This document shows, piece by piece, positions 46,093 through 52,794 of a stretch of DNA of 64,000 nucleotides (position 1 is its first letter; the number at the start of each line of letters is the position of its first letter). Below the pieces are notes generated by a model. The model was not told the DNA's origin. It saw only the letters and a list, made by a program, of their open reading frames with translations, and did no database searches. This DNA comes from Acidobacteriota bacterium (lineage in GTDB: Bacteria; Acidobacteriota; Terriglobia; Acidiferrales; UBA7541): assembly GCA_003225315.1 (NCBI GenBank), contig QHZD01000025.1, forward strand, positions 1 to 64,000. Direction: 5' to 3'. The position numbers were made by a program, and so were the translations under genes.

Positions 46093-48888
46093 TCAGCTGC
46101 AACCGCTGGTGCTGCCGCAATTCTCGCATTTGTAGCATGCGCCGTTCGGCACCATCAGCATGCCGCATTCGCTGCATGTCGGCGCGCCTTCATGCGCATT
46201 GGTCAGTTTCGGCGCAGCCGCTCCAGCAGGGAGCGAAGTAAGCGCCGCCAGGATCGCCGGGGCCGGAACGGCAGCGCCCGCATTTTCCGCGTGAGCCGCT
46301 CCGTTGAGCTTCAAATAATCGGACGAAATAAACCGCCCGCCCAGCCACCGCGCGATGTAATCTAGCACCGATGAGACAAACCGAATGTTCGGGTTCGCGG
46401 TGATGCCCGACGGCTCAAACCGCGTGTTCAGCAGCTTGTCCACAAACACTTTCAGCGGCACGCCGTACTGCAGACCCAGTGAAATGGTTAGCGCCAATCC
46501 GTCCATCACGCCGGAAAGTGTCGACCCTTCCTTGGACATCTTGATGAAAATTTCGCCGGGACGATTGTCCTCGTACATGCCTACGGTGATGTAGCCTTCG
46601 TGCCCGCCCACGCTGAATTTGTGCGTCACCGATGCGCGCTCCACCGGCATTTTCTCGCGCACCGCTCGCGCGAAGAGCTCGCGTTGCGTTGGCTCAAGAT
46701 TTGCCGTCGTCGCCGCAGTCTCGGCTTTCTTTTCTTCTTTCTTTCCGCCGGCATTCAGTGGCTGCGAACGCTTGGAATTGTCGCGGTAGATGGCCACGGC
46801 CTTCAGCCCCAGGTTCCACGATTCAATATACGCGTTCATGATGTCTTCGACGGTCGATTCCTCCGGCATGTTGATGGTTTTCGAAATCGCGCCCGACAGG
46901 AACGGCTGCGCCGCCGCCATCATCTTCACGTGCCCGGTCCAGCTGATCGAACGGCCGCCGCCCTGTGGCGCCAGCGAACAATCGAACACCGGCAAGTCTT
47001 CTTCTTTCAGGTGCGGCGCGCCTTCGATCTTTCCGTTCTTGTCGATGTAGGAAACGATTTCGCTGGTTTGTTCCGGCGTGTAGCCCAGTTTCATCAGCGC
47101 CTGCGGCACGGTGTTGTTCACGATCTTGATCAACCCGCCGCCTACCAGTTTCTTGTACTTCACCAGCGCCAGGTCCGGTTCGATTCCCGTGGTGTCGCAA
47201 TCCATCATGAAGCCGATCGTGCCCGTGGGCGCCAGCACGGTCACCTGCGAATTCTTGTAGCCGTACTTCTCGCCGTGCGACAGCGCCGTGTCCCACGATT
47301 CCTGCGCGCCCAGGAACAATTCCGTCTGCACGTGTTCCGGCTGGATCCCGCGCATCGCGTCGCGATGCATGCGAATCACGTCCAGCATCGGTTCGCGGTT
47401 CACTTCGTAGCCCGGGAACGGGCCCATGCGCTCCGCAATTTTTGAGGATTGCGCGTACGCCTCGCCGCACATCAGCGCGGTGACCGCGCCGGCCACGTCG
47501 CGCCCCTCCGGTGAGTCGTACGGCAGCGCCATGGACATCAGCAGCGCGCCGAGATTGGCGTAGCCCAGCCCGAGCGGCCGGAAGTTATGTGAATTCTCTT
47601 TAATCTTGTCTGTCGGGTAGCTCGCGTTGTCCACCAGGATTTCCTGCGCCGTGATGGTCACGTCCACTGCGTGCTTGAACGCCGCAACGTCGAACTGCCC
47701 GCTGCCGTTCGCGAACTTCATCAGGTTCAGCGAAGCCAGGTTGCACGCCGTGTCATCCAGGAACATGTATTCCGAGCACGGGTTGCTGGCGTTGATTCGT
47801 GCCGTGTTTTTCGAAGTGTGCCAGCGGTTCACCGTCGTGTCGTACTGCATCCCGGGATCGCCGCAATGCCAGGTCGAATCCGCAATCTTCATCATCAGGT
47901 CGCGCGCCCGCAGCTTATCCGCCGGCTGCCCGTCCGTGACGTTCTTCGTCCACCAATCTTTATCTTCGACCACCGCGCGCATGAAATCGTCCGTCACGCG
48001 CACCGAGTGGTTCGCATTCTGGAAGAAAATCGAAGCATACGCGTCACCGTCGATCGAGCTATCGTAGCCCTGTTCGATCAGCACGTGCGCCTTGCGCTCT
48101 TCCTTCATCTTGCATTCGATGAATTCCACGATATCCGGATGATCGATGTTCAGAATCACCATCTTCGCCGCGCGCCGCGTTTTTCCGCCGCTCTTGATCA
48201 CGCCCGCGAACGCATCGAAGCCCTTCATGAAACTTACCGGCCCGGACGCAATTCCGCCGCCGCTCAGCGTTTCACGGCTGCCGCGCAGCGTCGAAAAGTT
48301 CGTCCCCGTGCCGGAGCCCCACTTGAAGAGCATTCCTTCGGTCCGCGTCAGGCCCATGATCGATTCCATGCTGTCGCTGACCGAGTTGATGAAGCACGCC
48401 GAGCACTGCGGCTTCGACTGCACGCCCACGTTGAACCACACCGGGGAGTTGAACGCCATCTTCTGCTCGACGAGGAGGTGCGTCAGCTCATCGCGAAAAG
48501 CATCCCGCGACGCCGCATCGGCAAAATACCCGCCCTCTTGGCCCCATCGCACGATGGTGTTCACCACGCGCCCGATCAGTTGCCGCACCGATCCTTCGCG
48601 CTGGGGAGTCCCGGGTTTGCCATGGAAATATTTGCTGGTGACGATGTTGGTAGCCGTCTGCGACCAGCTCTTCGGCACTTCCACGTCTTCCTGGCGGAAG
48701 ATCGTCACGCCTTTTTCGTTCCCGATCAGCGCGGTACGCTTTTCCCATTCGACGGCGTCGAAGGGAGACTTCTTCCCATCCGTAAAGAACCGTTCAAAGG
48801 CCAGACCTTTCCCAGTGCTGGCTGCCGTCTTCTCGGCCGTATCCGTCGCCAGGGATTTTCCGTTCAATGCATGTTTCACTGTGGCCAT
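46093..48888 (-). CDS. nrdJ: Vitamin B12-dependent ribonucleoside-diphosphate reductase
   Basis: A 931-residue class II reductase that makes deoxyribonucleotides with adenosylcobalamin. Visible: CSACFINSVSDSMESI with the first redox Cys region (about 157-172), WGSGTGTNFSTLRGSRETLS, NPCSEYMFLDDTACNLASLN (about 371-390) containing the active-site loop, VLAPTGTIGFMMDCDTTGIE, and a C-terminal zinc-ribbon-like Cys tail (CSECGMLMVPNGACYKCENC) thought to carry the reducing thiols. A good site (GGAGGGA) precedes ATG 48888. A strong promoter and a structured leader upstream (49050-49330) suggest control by B12. Confidence 0.95.
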   Translation of the reverse strand: MATVKHALNGKSLATDTAEKTAASTGKGLAFERFFTDGKKSPFDAVEWEKRTALIGNEKGVTIFRQEDVEVPKSWSQTATNIVTSKYFHGKPGTPQREGSVRQLIGRVVNTIVRWGQEGGYFADAASRDAFRDELTHLLVEQKMAFNSPVWFNVGVQSKPQCSACFINSVSDSMESIMGLTRTEGMLFKWGSGTGTNFSTLRGSRETLSGGGIASGPVSFMKGFDAFAGVIKSGGKTRRAAKMVILNIDHPDIVEFIECKMKEERKAHVLIEQGYDSSIDGDAYASIFFQNANHSVRVTDDFMRAVVEDKDWWTKNVTDGQPADKLRARDLMMKIADSTWHCGDPGMQYDTTVNRWHTSKNTARINASNPCSEYMFLDDTACNLASLNLMKFANGSGQFDVAAFKHAVDVTITAQEILVDNASYPTDKIKENSHNFRPLGLGYANLGALLMSMALPYDSPEGRDVAGAVTALMCGEAYAQSSKIAERMGPFPGYEVNREPMLDVIRMHRDAMRGIQPEHVQTELFLGAQESWDTALSHGEKYGYKNSQVTVLAPTGTIGFMMDCDTTGIEPDLALVKYKKLVGGGLIKIVNNTVPQALMKLGYTPEQTSEIVSYIDKNGKIEGAPHLKEEDLPVFDCSLAPQGGGRSISWTGHVKMMAAAQPFLSGAISKTINMPEESTVEDIMNAYIESWNLGLKAVAIYRDNSKRSQPLNAGGKKEEKKAETAATTANLEPTQRELFARAVREKMPVERASVTHKFSVGGHEGYITVGMYEDNRPGEIFIKMSKEGSTLSGVMDGLALTISLGLQYGVPLKVFVDKLLNTRFEPSGITANPNIRFVSSVLDYIARWLGGRFISSDYLKLNGAAHAENAGAAVPAPAILAALTSLPAGAAAPKLTNAHEGAPTCSECGMLMVPNGACYKCENCGSTSGCS

Positions 48889-49049
48889 CCGTCCCTCCGC
48901 GCTCCAGGGTCCCCGCTCGCGGAGGGAACCCTATTATTTTACTCCCTCTGCGTCCCGCAGAGGCGCCGCGCTTCGCTTCAGGGTCTGGGCTGAAGTTAGC
49001 GCATCCCCCGCTTCGATTGGCGATTCGATTGGTTCGTGAAAGCGGGCAG

Positions 49050-49200
49050 CGAAAAAAAAGCCGACCATACTCCGGTCGTACTCAAGTTCTAGCGCGAAAC
49101 GCCAATGCCCTGCCAGTGGCTGGTGGTTCGCACTCAGCCTAACAGCAGGGTGCCCCGCCTGAAATACGGGCGCGGAGCAGGTATTGCCGCTCGATTTTTT
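49050..49200 (-). promoter_or_regulatory. Candidate cobalamin riboswitch with terminator, nrdJ leader
   Basis: Read on the minus strand, the leader has GTGCGAACCACCAGCCACTG (ends at 49114), matching the GGTGnnAAnnCC...GCCACTG core of cobalamin riboswitches, and 32 nt later the segment ACGACCGGAGTATGGTCGGC (49079-49060), which resembles the B12 box (CxGGAGxxC). That segment also folds into a CGACC/GGTCG hairpin followed by eight Us (49059-49052), a terminator-like platform. Gene context (a B12-dependent enzyme) fits. The GGGAA element upstream is degenerate, so the class is uncertain. Confidence 0.5.
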
Positions 49201-49301
49201 CGCTTAAAACCCGGGCTGCCTCGTGGCCCAGCCCACACGGACCTTTTTCGTCCCCGATCCGGTCCGTCTGGCGCTTCCACGTCCCCCGAATCTGGATTCG
49301 C

Positions 49302-49330
49302 AGTATCAACGGAAGAAAATATTCTGTCAA
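49302..49330 (-). promoter_or_regulatory. nrdJ promoter
   Basis: On the minus strand TTGACA (49330-49325), 17-bp spacer, GATACT (49307-49302). Near-consensus sigma70. The predicted start near 49295 gives a leader of about 400 nt before nrdJ, long enough for the riboswitch-like segment. Confidence 0.6.
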
Positions 49331-49487
49331 GAGAAAAACGCAAAATGTGGTTGACGTTTTCGTACTGCGTCTATTTGTAGTGGTCTGATTTCCACTCAGT
49401 TTCCACCGATTTTCCACTTCACCGCTTCCTCTTCGATACTTTTCGCCGCCTTGCCTTTCGCGCCACATTCTCTGCATCCTATTGAAT

Positions 49488-50111
49488 ATGCAGCGCACTC
49501 TGCCAACGTTTGCCCTCTTTCTCTTCCTTCCGCTTCGTATTTTCGCGCAAACCGCTGCGCCCGCTTCCGCTCCTTCGCTCACGCCACGTGCCTTCGGGCA
49601 AAAACTGCAGATCGCCGGTGTACACAACGCCGGTAAAATCACGGACTTTCTCTACCGTGGCGCACAGCCCAAAGAAGCGGGCCTCTCTGAACTGAAACTG
49701 CTGGGCGTCACCACGATTGTCGATCTTCGCGGTGAAGACCAAGAAAAAGTCACCTGGGAACGCAATCGCGCCGAGTCACTTGGAATGCGCTTTGTACACA
49801 TCCCCGTCAGCGGCTGGTCTCCTCCAACCGACGAACAGGTGGTTCAGTTTTTGTCGCTGTTTCGCGGCGAACCGGGGCAGAGAATTTTCGTTCACTGCCG
49901 CTTTGGTAACGATCGCACTGGCGTTCTCGTCGCTACCTATCGCATGGCTTTCGAAAAGTGGTCCGCGGAACAAGCCATGAAAGAAATGTATTTCTTCGGC
50001 TTCAACGGATTCTGGCATCCGGCGATGAAATCTTTTGTTCGCGATTTCCCCGCGCGATTGAATTCTTCACCAGCCCTCGCGTCGCTACGCTGCCAGTCTC
50101 CTCAACGATGA
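49488..50111 (+). CDS. Secreted dual-specificity/tyrosine phosphatase-like protein
   Basis: 207 residues from ATG 49488 (TTG 49482 is in frame). Signal peptide LPTFALFLFLPLRIFAQ, then a PTP/DSP fold with FLYRGAQPKEAGLSELKLLG, TTIVDLRGEDQEKV, and the catalytic P-loop VHCRFGNDRTGVLVATYRMA (C-x5-R, about 136-155). The general-acid loop may lie in PVSGWSPPTDEQ. It could act on phosphoproteins or phosphoinositides outside the cytoplasm. The Ser/Thr kinases next to it make a loose phospho-signalling neighbourhood. Confidence 0.85.
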   Translation: MQRTLPTFALFLFLPLRIFAQTAAPASAPSLTPRAFGQKLQIAGVHNAGKITDFLYRGAQPKEAGLSELKLLGVTTIVDLRGEDQEKVTWERNRAESLGMRFVHIPVSGWSPPTDEQVVQFLSLFRGEPGQRIFVHCRFGNDRTGVLVATYRMAFEKWSAEQAMKEMYFFGFNGFWHPAMKSFVRDFPARLNSSPALASLRCQSPQR

Positions 50112-50302
50112 TTTGGCTGGCCGGAAACCGTACTCAAATGCGTTTCTGCTTGATTAGCCACTGAAAACAAAAGGTTTAGAGCCATTTTTCTCCTAGTACG
50201 TTCGTACCCTGCGAAACAGGACGCTTGCTTCATTTGAGGGAACACCGGCTTCCCTCACCATTCCGTGTATTCCAGATTTAGCGGTCTGACGGAGTGGTCC
50301 CC

Positions 50303-51187
50303 ATGCAAATCGGACGCTACGAAATTCTAGAAATCATCGGCACCGGCGCTCATGGCCGTGTGGCACGCGCCCACGATCCCATGATCGGGCGCCTGGTGGC
50401 CATCAAGCTGTTCCCCAAGGAATTGGCCAGTGGCGAAGCGCGCCAGCGCTTTATTCAGGAAGCGCGCGTCGTTGGCCAGCTCTCGCATCCTTCCATCATC
50501 ACACTCCACGACATGGGCATTGACGAAGCCACACAGACGCCCTATCTCGTCATGGAATATTTGGAAGGCCAGCCCCTCGATCGCATTCTGGATAAAGGCA
50601 GCGTTCCCTATCCAAGAGCTTGCGCCTGGGCAGCGGACGCGGCTTGCGCGCTCGGCGTGGCGCACCGCAAAGGCGTGATTCATGGCGACGTCAAGCCCGG
50701 GAACATACTCATCACCGATGAAGGCCGCGTGAAATTGATGGACTTTGGAATGGCGCGGCTCGCCAGCCACGATTCCAAGGCGACGCCGCTTGTGGGCACG
50801 CCTGCTTACTGGTGCCCGGAGCAAATCCTGGGCAAACCCCAGGATGCGCGTTCCGATCTTTTTTCTCTTGGCGTCGTTCTCTACGAAATGGTGACGGGCA
50901 AGCGTCCTTTCGACGCGGACTCCCTTCAGGCCATTTGCAGCCGCGTTCTCTCTTCCACGCCGCTGCCGCCGTCGCATGCGAATCCATCCGTGCCGTCGAA
51001 CTTTGACGGCATCATAGCGCGTTGCCTGGCGAAAGATCCCGCAGCCCGGTACGCACCGGCCGAAGCTCTCGCGGAAGAACTGTATCCGTTGGCGCGCCGC
51101 AAAGAGACTCCGGTTCCGGTGACGCAATCCAATGGAAATGGACACGGCTTGCGTGACCGCGCAGCGCGGCTGCTGCGCTCTGCCTGA
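50303..51187 (+). CDS. Serine/threonine protein kinase (soluble, non-RD)
   Basis: 294 residues from ATG 50303 (GTG 50294 is the alternative). A complete Hanks-type kinase: glycine loop IIGTGAHGRVARA, Lys in AIKLFPKE, catalytic loop HGDVKPGNIL (Asp present, Arg of HRD replaced by Gly), DFGMAR, and a P+1/APE region PAYWCPEQI. There is no transmembrane segment, so it is cytoplasmic. It overlaps the next kinase gene by one base (TGATG), and the two are paralogous along their whole kinase domain. Confidence 0.93.
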   Translation: MQIGRYEILEIIGTGAHGRVARAHDPMIGRLVAIKLFPKELASGEARQRFIQEARVVGQLSHPSIITLHDMGIDEATQTPYLVMEYLEGQPLDRILDKGSVPYPRACAWAADAACALGVAHRKGVIHGDVKPGNILITDEGRVKLMDFGMARLASHDSKATPLVGTPAYWCPEQILGKPQDARSDLFSLGVVLYEMVTGKRPFDADSLQAICSRVLSSTPLPPSHANPSVPSNFDGIIARCLAKDPAARYAPAEALAEELYPLARRKETPVPVTQSNGNGHGLRDRAARLLRSA

Positions 51188-52794
51188 TGATTACCTTGCA
51201 AAAAGGCCGGTACGAAAGCATCGAGCCTCTCGGCTCCGGCGCTACCAGCCGCGTTGAAATGGCGCGCGACAACGTCATCGGCCGAGTCGTGGCCCTCAAG
51301 ACTTTTGTCAATGGCTTCGGCGAAGGCCAGGAGCAGCAATTCCTGCGCGAGGCGCAAATCATCGGCCAGCTCTCCAATCCTTCCATCGTGCAGCTTTACG
51401 ACGTGGGCATCGACGAGCAGGGCACGCCGTTCCTGGTGATGGAATACGTCGCCGGCAAGACGCTGGAGCACCATCTCGATCCGTCCACGCTGACGCCGCA
51501 GCGGGCCTGCGCCTGGGCGGCCGATCTGGCCAATGCGCTGGCACTGGCTCACCGCGCCGGAATTCTCCACGGTGACGTCAAGCCCGGGAACATTCTTGTG
51601 ACGCCGGAGAACAAAGTAAAACTCGGCGACTTTGGCATCGCGCGTTACGCCTCGCAGATTTCCGGCTCGGGCAGGCTGCTGGGCACGCCAGCGTACCTGG
51701 CGCCGGAACAAATCCAGGGCCAGCCGCAGGACGCCCGCTCGGATCAATTCGCGCTCGGAATTGTTCTGTATCAAATGCTGACCGGGGCGCGCCCCTTTGA
51801 TGGAAGTTCCATCGCGGCCGTTTGCGCGCAAATTCTGCAGGCCGCCCCAGAGCCGCCGTCACGGCGCAATCCGGCGGTTCCGGCAGCGCTCGATCGCATC
51901 GTGGCCCGTTGCCTCTCGAAGAATCCCGGGGACCGCTTTGCTTCCTGCGAAGAGCTGGCGTCTGCCCTGTACCCGCTCGCGCGGGCCAGCTCGCAAGCGG
52001 CTGCTGCCAAAATCAAAAAGAGATCCTGGTGGTCGAGGCCGACGCACCCGCAGGATATCTTGATCGCCGCGGCCGCGTGTCTCTTGCTGGCGCTCAGCGT
52101 TCCGGCGATGCGCTCCGTCCGCGCCCGGCTTGCTGTGCCTCCACCTCCCGCGGGTGTTCGTTTTTCGCTGGCGCTGCCGCCGGAAGCGTTGATGCACACA
52201 TCGCAAGACGTGGCGCCCGTTCTCACAGCTGACGCGTCATCGCCGGAAAACGAACAAAAGAATTCTCCAGCGCGGCAGGATCGTTCCGCAAAGAATCTCC
52301 GCTCACATGAAAAGCATTCTTTGCAAAAGCCTTCGTCGAAGACTTTCCTTGCCGCTCTTCCCTCTTCGCCTCCCGTCAACCAGCCCGCAGCTGTTCCCGA
52401 TTCCAGCCTGCAAATTGAAATCACTTCAGCGGTCCGTGAAGGCACGGTGATTGTTTTCGCGGATCGCGAATTGCTCTTCTCGGTAAATTTAGCGGAAGAG
52501 AAGAAAGGCCAGCCGGTGCATTTCGAACACGCGCTCGCCGCGGGATCGCATCAATTCCGCGTGGCGCTGTACAAAGCGGACCGGAGCTTGCAGTTGGAAA
52601 AAGAGGGCTTCGCGGAAACGCGCGGTGACGGCGAAAACACGATGGCTGTGCACATTACGCGCCGCGCCAAACTGCTCATTCGGCACGAGCTGGCGCTCGA
52701 CGTCACCTGGCCCGGCGGGACCGCGCCAACCGCAACCGGGCGCTCGGGTGAACACCCCTCCGGCACTGTAAAGTCCGCCGCGTTGCTCAAGTAG
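51187..52794 (+). CDS. Transmembrane serine/threonine protein kinase (non-RD)
   Basis: 535 residues. Kinase domain about 5-265: LGSGATSRVEMA, VALKTFVNGF, HGDVKPGNILV, DFGIARYA and PAYLAPEQIQG. A membrane helix follows (DILIAAAACLLLALSVPAM, about 295-313), then a Ser/Pro-rich linker and a C-terminal beta domain (about 400-515, EGTVIVFADRELLFSVNLAE) that resembles PEGA-type surface domains. It may sense or bind an envelope ligand. As in its neighbour, HRD is HGD. It starts on the last base of the upstream kinase stop. Confidence 0.93.
   Translation: MITLQKGRYESIEPLGSGATSRVEMARDNVIGRVVALKTFVNGFGEGQEQQFLREAQIIGQLSNPSIVQLYDVGIDEQGTPFLVMEYVAGKTLEHHLDPSTLTPQRACAWAADLANALALAHRAGILHGDVKPGNILVTPENKVKLGDFGIARYASQISGSGRLLGTPAYLAPEQIQGQPQDARSDQFALGIVLYQMLTGARPFDGSSIAAVCAQILQAAPEPPSRRNPAVPAALDRIVARCLSKNPGDRFASCEELASALYPLARASSQAAAAKIKKRSWWSRPTHPQDILIAAAACLLLALSVPAMRSVRARLAVPPPPAGVRFSLALPPEALMHTSQDVAPVLTADASSPENEQKNSPARQDRSAKNLRSHEKHSLQKPSSKTFLAALPSSPPVNQPAAVPDSSLQIEITSAVREGTVIVFADRELLFSVNLAEEKKGQPVHFEHALAAGSHQFRVALYKADRSLQLEKEGFAETRGDGENTMAVHITRRAKLLIRHELALDVTWPGGTAPTATGRSGEHPSGTVKSAALLK

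Follow-up and report, generated by a model that had tools for sequence, protein, structure and literature searches.

The nrdJ gene in the 64,000-nucleotide stretch of DNA from a soil member of the Acidobacteriota analysed here (the window) is preceded by a conserved leader RNA that folds into two domains and represents an undescribed family, absent from Rfam 15. This RNA is probably a switch. With a probability of roughly 0.55, we consider it to be a cis-acting, ligand- or factor-responsive transcription attenuator of nrdJ, and we rank this reading ahead of a free small RNA and, after that, a constitutive structured leader. As the initial annotation had stated, nrdJ encodes a B12-dependent reductase (NF005122, 1438 bits against a cut-off of 859), and nrdJ is the only PF02867 gene found in the 97.6%-complete source genome. 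The leader, annotated as about 400 nt long, measures about 410 nt up to the nrdJ start at 48888 on the minus strand. The whole control region exceeds the interval 49050-49330 on which the annotation had focused, with the structured RNA at 49104-49301 and control sites reaching 49383 (Table 1). A divergent gene for a DSP/PTP-type phosphatase adjoins nrdJ (window 49482-50111), and two neighbouring genes on the plus strand (window 50294-52794) encode Ser/Thr protein kinases.

Table 1. Features of the nrdJ control region, in window coordinates except for the last line.
Feature	Position	Strand	Remarks
nrdJ, adenosylcobalamin-dependent ribonucleotide reductase	46093-48888	-	profile match
TAAAAT, -10-like, probable second promoter P2	48936-48941	-	between terminator and nrdJ; no -35 identified
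Inverted repeat CCTCTGC...GCAGAGG	48945-48963	-	just before TAAAAT; arms co-vary in relatives, by eye
Intrinsic terminator, CGACCG..GGUCG hairpin + U8	49052-49078	-	hairpin 49078-49062; eight U 49059-49052; includes CCGGAGTATGG
CCGGAGTATGG	49075-49065	-	
UGGCGUUUC, candidate long-range partner of J2/3	49096-49104	-	9 bp; tentative
Structured RNA element	49104-49301	-	model R1 (196 positions) scores 188.7 bits
Domain B (helix B1 + hairpin B2)	49111-49179	-	covariation
Hairpin B2	49147-49111	-	holds GTGCGAAC...GCCACTG
GTGCGAACCACCAGCCACTG	49133-49114	-	
Helix B1	49179-49172 with 49158-49151	-	
A-rich linker AAGCGAAAAAAUCGAGCG	49188-49205	-	conserved
Domain A	49206-49292	-	covariation
Helix P1, CAGAUUCGGG with CCCGGGUUC	49292-49285 with 49215-49206	-	base helix of domain A
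Helix P2, CGUGG/CCACG	49281-49277 with 49226-49222	-	domain A
J2/3, AAGCGCCA	49276-49269	-	almost invariant
Helix P3, CGGACC/GGUCCG	49266-49261 with 49243-49238	-	domain A; loop with GUCG caps helix
Promoter P1, TTGACA-17-GATACT	49302-49330	-	TTGACA 49330-49325; GATACT 49307-49302; aligned in 29/30 genus leaders
NrdR-like box 2, CAACCACATTTTGCGT	49338-49353	-	degenerate; weak alone, supported by conservation
NrdR-like box 1, CCACTACAAATAGACG	49368-49383	-	conserved before -35 in most family nrdJ leaders
Orphan element L152, CABMCB010000061.1	1269-1417	-	71.6 bits

Transcription of the leader is predicted to start at promoter P1. The near-consensus promoter of the initial annotation is indeed present and matches the consensus at 10 of 12 positions, with 0.2 such sites expected in shuffled sequences. 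Upstream of it lie two NrdR-like boxes, 30-31 bp apart, whose position recurs through the family. They are near-consensus in genus g12 (ACACTATATATAGCGT / ATACTATATATAGTGT) and degenerate in the genus of the window; the pair in the window itself reaches a summed score of 20 compared to a shuffled mean of 17.3. The genome contains an nrdR gene, and NrdR probably represses promoter P1 when dATP is plentiful. The region resembles the NrdR regulon in having two box-like sequences, separated by about 31 bp, upstream of the promoter of an RNR gene; NrdR, however, acts on DNA, which leaves the RNA fold unexplained.

A DNA search with the leader recovered 30 loci, every one of them directly upstream of nrdJ, and 27 of these were used to build the covariance model R1. 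Within the genus Candidatus Acidiferrum, R1 identified the element before nrdJ in 30 of 36 genomes (E 8e-52 to 8e-24), and a 31st genome, G033, carries a diverged copy that scored 28.6 bits with filters off. Of the remaining five genomes, G027 has its nrdJ cut by the contig end, and no nrdJ N-terminus was found in G003, G007, G022, and G029. The source genome contains a single copy of the element. Between the diverged element and nrdJ, the G033 leader carries a long near-perfect hairpin, GGAGGCTGCACT...AGTGCAGCCTCC (L112 351-398), which attracts chance microRNA matches in Rfam.

Beyond the genus, R1 detected a site just before nrdJ in G037, a genome of another genus (30.9 bits, whole-genome E 4e-5), and in a set of 20 other nrdJ leaders, of which 19 belong to different genera, each of the nine hits with E below 0.01 fell on the sense strand. 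Several other genera of the family carry a reduced, diverged form of the element at the same nrdJ position. In these genera the helix P1 partner is kept, while the interior stems are different yet self-complementary in several cases; single-sequence folding z-scores are modest (mean -1.3 for 15 leaders, five from Ca. Acidiferrum), so the fold there is read by eye. Outside the family, no element was seen in the genomes sampled, many of which are metagenome-assembled and which define the taxonomic spread given here. Across 396 genomes of the phylum R1 gave weak matches only (E 0.03 or more), and the element was not seen upstream of nrdJ in two neighbouring families of the order or in further families of the class. 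The nrdJ leaders of all these families do have a promoter and, in some cases, NrdR-like boxes. The core pattern matched 22 genome contigs and was not matched in viral contigs; L164, L167, and L172, from other phyla, are without a real R1 score and were taken as chance matches. A Ca. Acidiferrum leader (178.8 bits) was also found on L159 (CAJCHZ010000021.1), which is labelled Betaproteobacteria and probably mislabelled.

The element comprises about 196 nt and begins at or a few nt from the predicted +1; in the aligned genus loci, TTGACA-17-GATACT is followed by an RNA of 191-209 nt. Covariation supports the two-domain fold. In the genus alignment (30 sequences, 55-96% identity), 91.3% of the cells are paired compared to 35-49% when the partners are slid. 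Two-sided changes occur at 18 pairs, whereas shuffles of the same 30 sequences give 6.6 +/- 1.7; these counts lean to structure, as the alignment was fitted to the fold, and relatedness stays in the shuffles. Such changes affect all six pairs of helix P3, two of five in helix P2, five of eight in helix B1, and five of 12 in the helices of hairpin B2. Helix P1 shows one-sided variation only within the genus and, by eye, more pair-keeping changes in other genera. The P3 variants CGGGCC/GGCCCG, CGAACC/GGUUCG, GGGACC/GGUUCC, and CGGATC/GATCCG are also plain in an unfitted MAFFT alignment, and the fold of the window leader is matched or surpassed by only a single sequence among 200 shuffles (z -2.67). 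A leader peptide or other coding function was ruled out, since each frame on this strand is closed in at least 24 of the 30 genus leaders and one-base indels are numerous.

An intrinsic terminator follows domain B in roughly one half to two thirds of the genus members. The initial annotation had already pointed to a hairpin with eight U before nrdJ, which is present at a slightly different distance from the ATG (163 nt, not 160). By itself this site is not above chance, with one terminator-like site found in the window and 1.2 expected. A strict scan, however, detected terminators in 13 of 30 genus leaders versus 3 of 275 shuffles, and several further genus leaders show a hairpin with U8 by eye. 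In 14 aligned examples of the hairpin, 94.9% of the cells are paired, C-G to U-A exchanges occur, and 10 cells carry two-sided changes compared to 3.3 in shuffled data. The terminator hairpin is thus conserved by compensatory change, above chance. About one third of the genus is without a clear terminator, which counts against an attenuator.

The segment just before the terminator, UGGCGUUU, can pair with the AAGCGCCA stretch of domain A in a candidate long-range helix. All eight scored pairs are found in 14 of 30 genus leaders, chiefly the terminator-bearing ones, and the pairing is lost in most genus members without a clear terminator. Its mean energy is -13.0 kcal/mol versus -8.6 kcal/mol with shuffled tails; given that the leaders come from related species, with conservation in both segments, we regard this pairing as a lead rather than as proof. 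An antiterminator formed by the A-rich linker and the U-tract looked attractive in the window fold but gained no support from a swap test, in which the leaders' own pairing hardly beats swapped pairing (-12.5 and -11.7 kcal/mol for own and swapped tails, respectively).

The initial annotation had interpreted the leader as a cobalamin riboswitch or a variant of one. The B12-dependent enzyme encoded downstream fits this proposal, as do, superficially, GTGCGAAC...GCCACTG and the B12-box-like CCGGAGTATGG, both of which are present, at a spacing of 38 nt instead of the 32 nt given. The strings are not conserved, however. GCCACTG reads GCCAGTG, GCCAACG, or GCCAGCG in relatives because it belongs to a GCC..GGC hairpin, and CCGGAGTATGG, which differs among close relatives, is the upper, variable part of the terminator hairpin and not a B12 box. 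At gathering thresholds, Rfam yielded nothing across the whole window; cmscan with all Rfam models at E up to 10 over 801 bases gave no cobalamin and no nrdJ-family match in the leader, and neither family matched any of 20 leaders from related genomes. The negative result is informative since RF00174 detects two cobalamin riboswitches elsewhere in the same genome (C15; 49.9 and 45.1 bits). Control in a leader, a tie to B12 enzymes, and terminator-type output are features that the element shares with RF00174, but it lacks the score, the B12 box, and the conserved cobalamin core of this family. Homology to cobalamin riboswitches was therefore rejected, and we regard a cobalamin riboswitch or a variant of one as highly improbable. 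The annotation had named the lack of a covariance hit together with the lack of conserved paired positions in homologous leaders as grounds for giving up its proposal. The cobalamin models indeed gave zero hits in the leader, whereas the comparison of related nrdJ leaders that it had suggested uncovered a conserved, structured, terminator-bearing leader with covarying helices.

The regulatory logic also speaks against a cobalamin riboswitch. Cobalamin riboswitches usually switch off B12-independent enzymes, and such OFF logic would make little sense where the sole RNR depends on B12. G007, a member of the same genus, contains a canonical cobalamin riboswitch (107 bits; L139 1501-1716, G007:C28) in front of a class I NrdA-type RNR (L139 1752 onwards). 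Neither nrdJ nor, in the R1 search, a convincing copy of the nrdJ leader RNA was found in this genome. This arrangement fits the usual OFF role and argues that the nrdJ leader RNA does something else.

An RNA named for nrdJ, RF03034, has been reported upstream of this gene in Streptomyces (PMC8079986). Like our element, it is a leader RNA linked to nrdJ, but has 80 positions, whereas the element in the window has 196 positions in two domains. RF03034 matched neither the source genome nor the leader, exceeded the cut-off of 40.3 bits in 0 of 41 genomes, and gave weak sub-threshold matches only in relatives; identity of the leader with this RNA was therefore rejected. RNR genes are also controlled by a riboswitch in Mesoplasma, where the ligand is 2'-deoxyguanosine. 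The purine-riboswitch fold of that RNA, which is likewise RNR-linked, gives no Rfam match in our leader. The 2'-deoxyguanosine riboswitch class has been described (PMC12268651). Our literature search, with incomplete coverage of subscription papers, found no description of the nrdJ leader RNA.

Between the terminator and nrdJ, a GTANA(A/C)T motif occurs at a fixed spot in 45 of the 56 leaders listed. Bases one, two, and the last of the hexamer are constant, as in a -10 box, a constancy that is partly built in because the search pattern required these bases. The site is probably a second promoter, P2, judging from its sequence, and such a promoter would bypass or soften attenuation. The inverted repeat next to it could be an RNA hairpin or an operator. 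Together with a terminator that separates the element from nrdJ, the downstream site agrees with a different reading, in which a free small RNA of about 245 nt extends from promoter P1 to the terminator under NrdR control, acting in trans or being a stable by-product, while nrdJ is expressed mainly from promoter P2. The best argument for such an RNA is the orphan element L152, which has NrdR-like boxes, a promoter, domain A, and a hairpin-U5 terminator but has tRNA-Ser(GCT) downstream, along with a GNAT gene. As a copy with promoter and terminator that does not precede nrdJ, L152 also counts against an attenuator. The assembly is labelled uncultured archaeon, and no nrdJ was found in it apart from a distant RNR; since the contig was binned with an archaeon, this lone orphan may represent mobile DNA or a misassigned fragment, and its history is unclear. 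The location of the element at nrdJ in more than 30 genomes, its single copy in the source genome, and its fast evolution between genera, unlike that of most trans-acting housekeeping RNAs, make a free small RNA considerably less likely than a cis-acting attenuator. Somewhat less likely still is a constitutive structured leader that protects the mRNA or fixes a termination level without sensing. The wide variation of the domain A interior and of the terminator between genera would suit such a leader, but the unpaired stretches conserved within the genus, i.e., AAGCGCCA, the UCG loop, and the A-rich linker, exceed what a protective stem needs.

We thus favour the cis-acting attenuator and propose that, once transcription has started at promoter P1, the first ~200 nt would fold as P1-P2-P3 and then B1-B2. 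At the terminator, transcription would either stop, leaving a short RNA of about 245 nt, or continue into nrdJ. This choice might be biased by a metabolite or another factor that binds the conserved core in domain A (CAGAUUCGGGGGA, AAGCGCCA, and the GUCG loop), perhaps via pairing of J2/3 with the nucleotides immediately ahead of the terminator, and promoter P2 would give basal expression of the apparently sole RNR. The most plausible candidate signals are a deoxynucleotide and AdoCbl, the latter switching expression on. A more tentative proposal than attenuation as such is that the RNA forms a new class of riboswitch, restricted to a single family in the order Ca. Acidiferrales, which senses either a deoxynucleotide or, in an ON direction, AdoCbl and, with NrdR, sets expression of the sole RNR.

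The alignment and covariance model of this new RNA family are ready for testing. RNR determines how many DNA precursors are available, and where this enzyme is seemingly the only one of its kind and depends on B12, a conserved leader RNA would add a second layer of control beyond NrdR. This raises the question of whether the nrdJ leader RNA reads the cofactor or the product of the enzyme.
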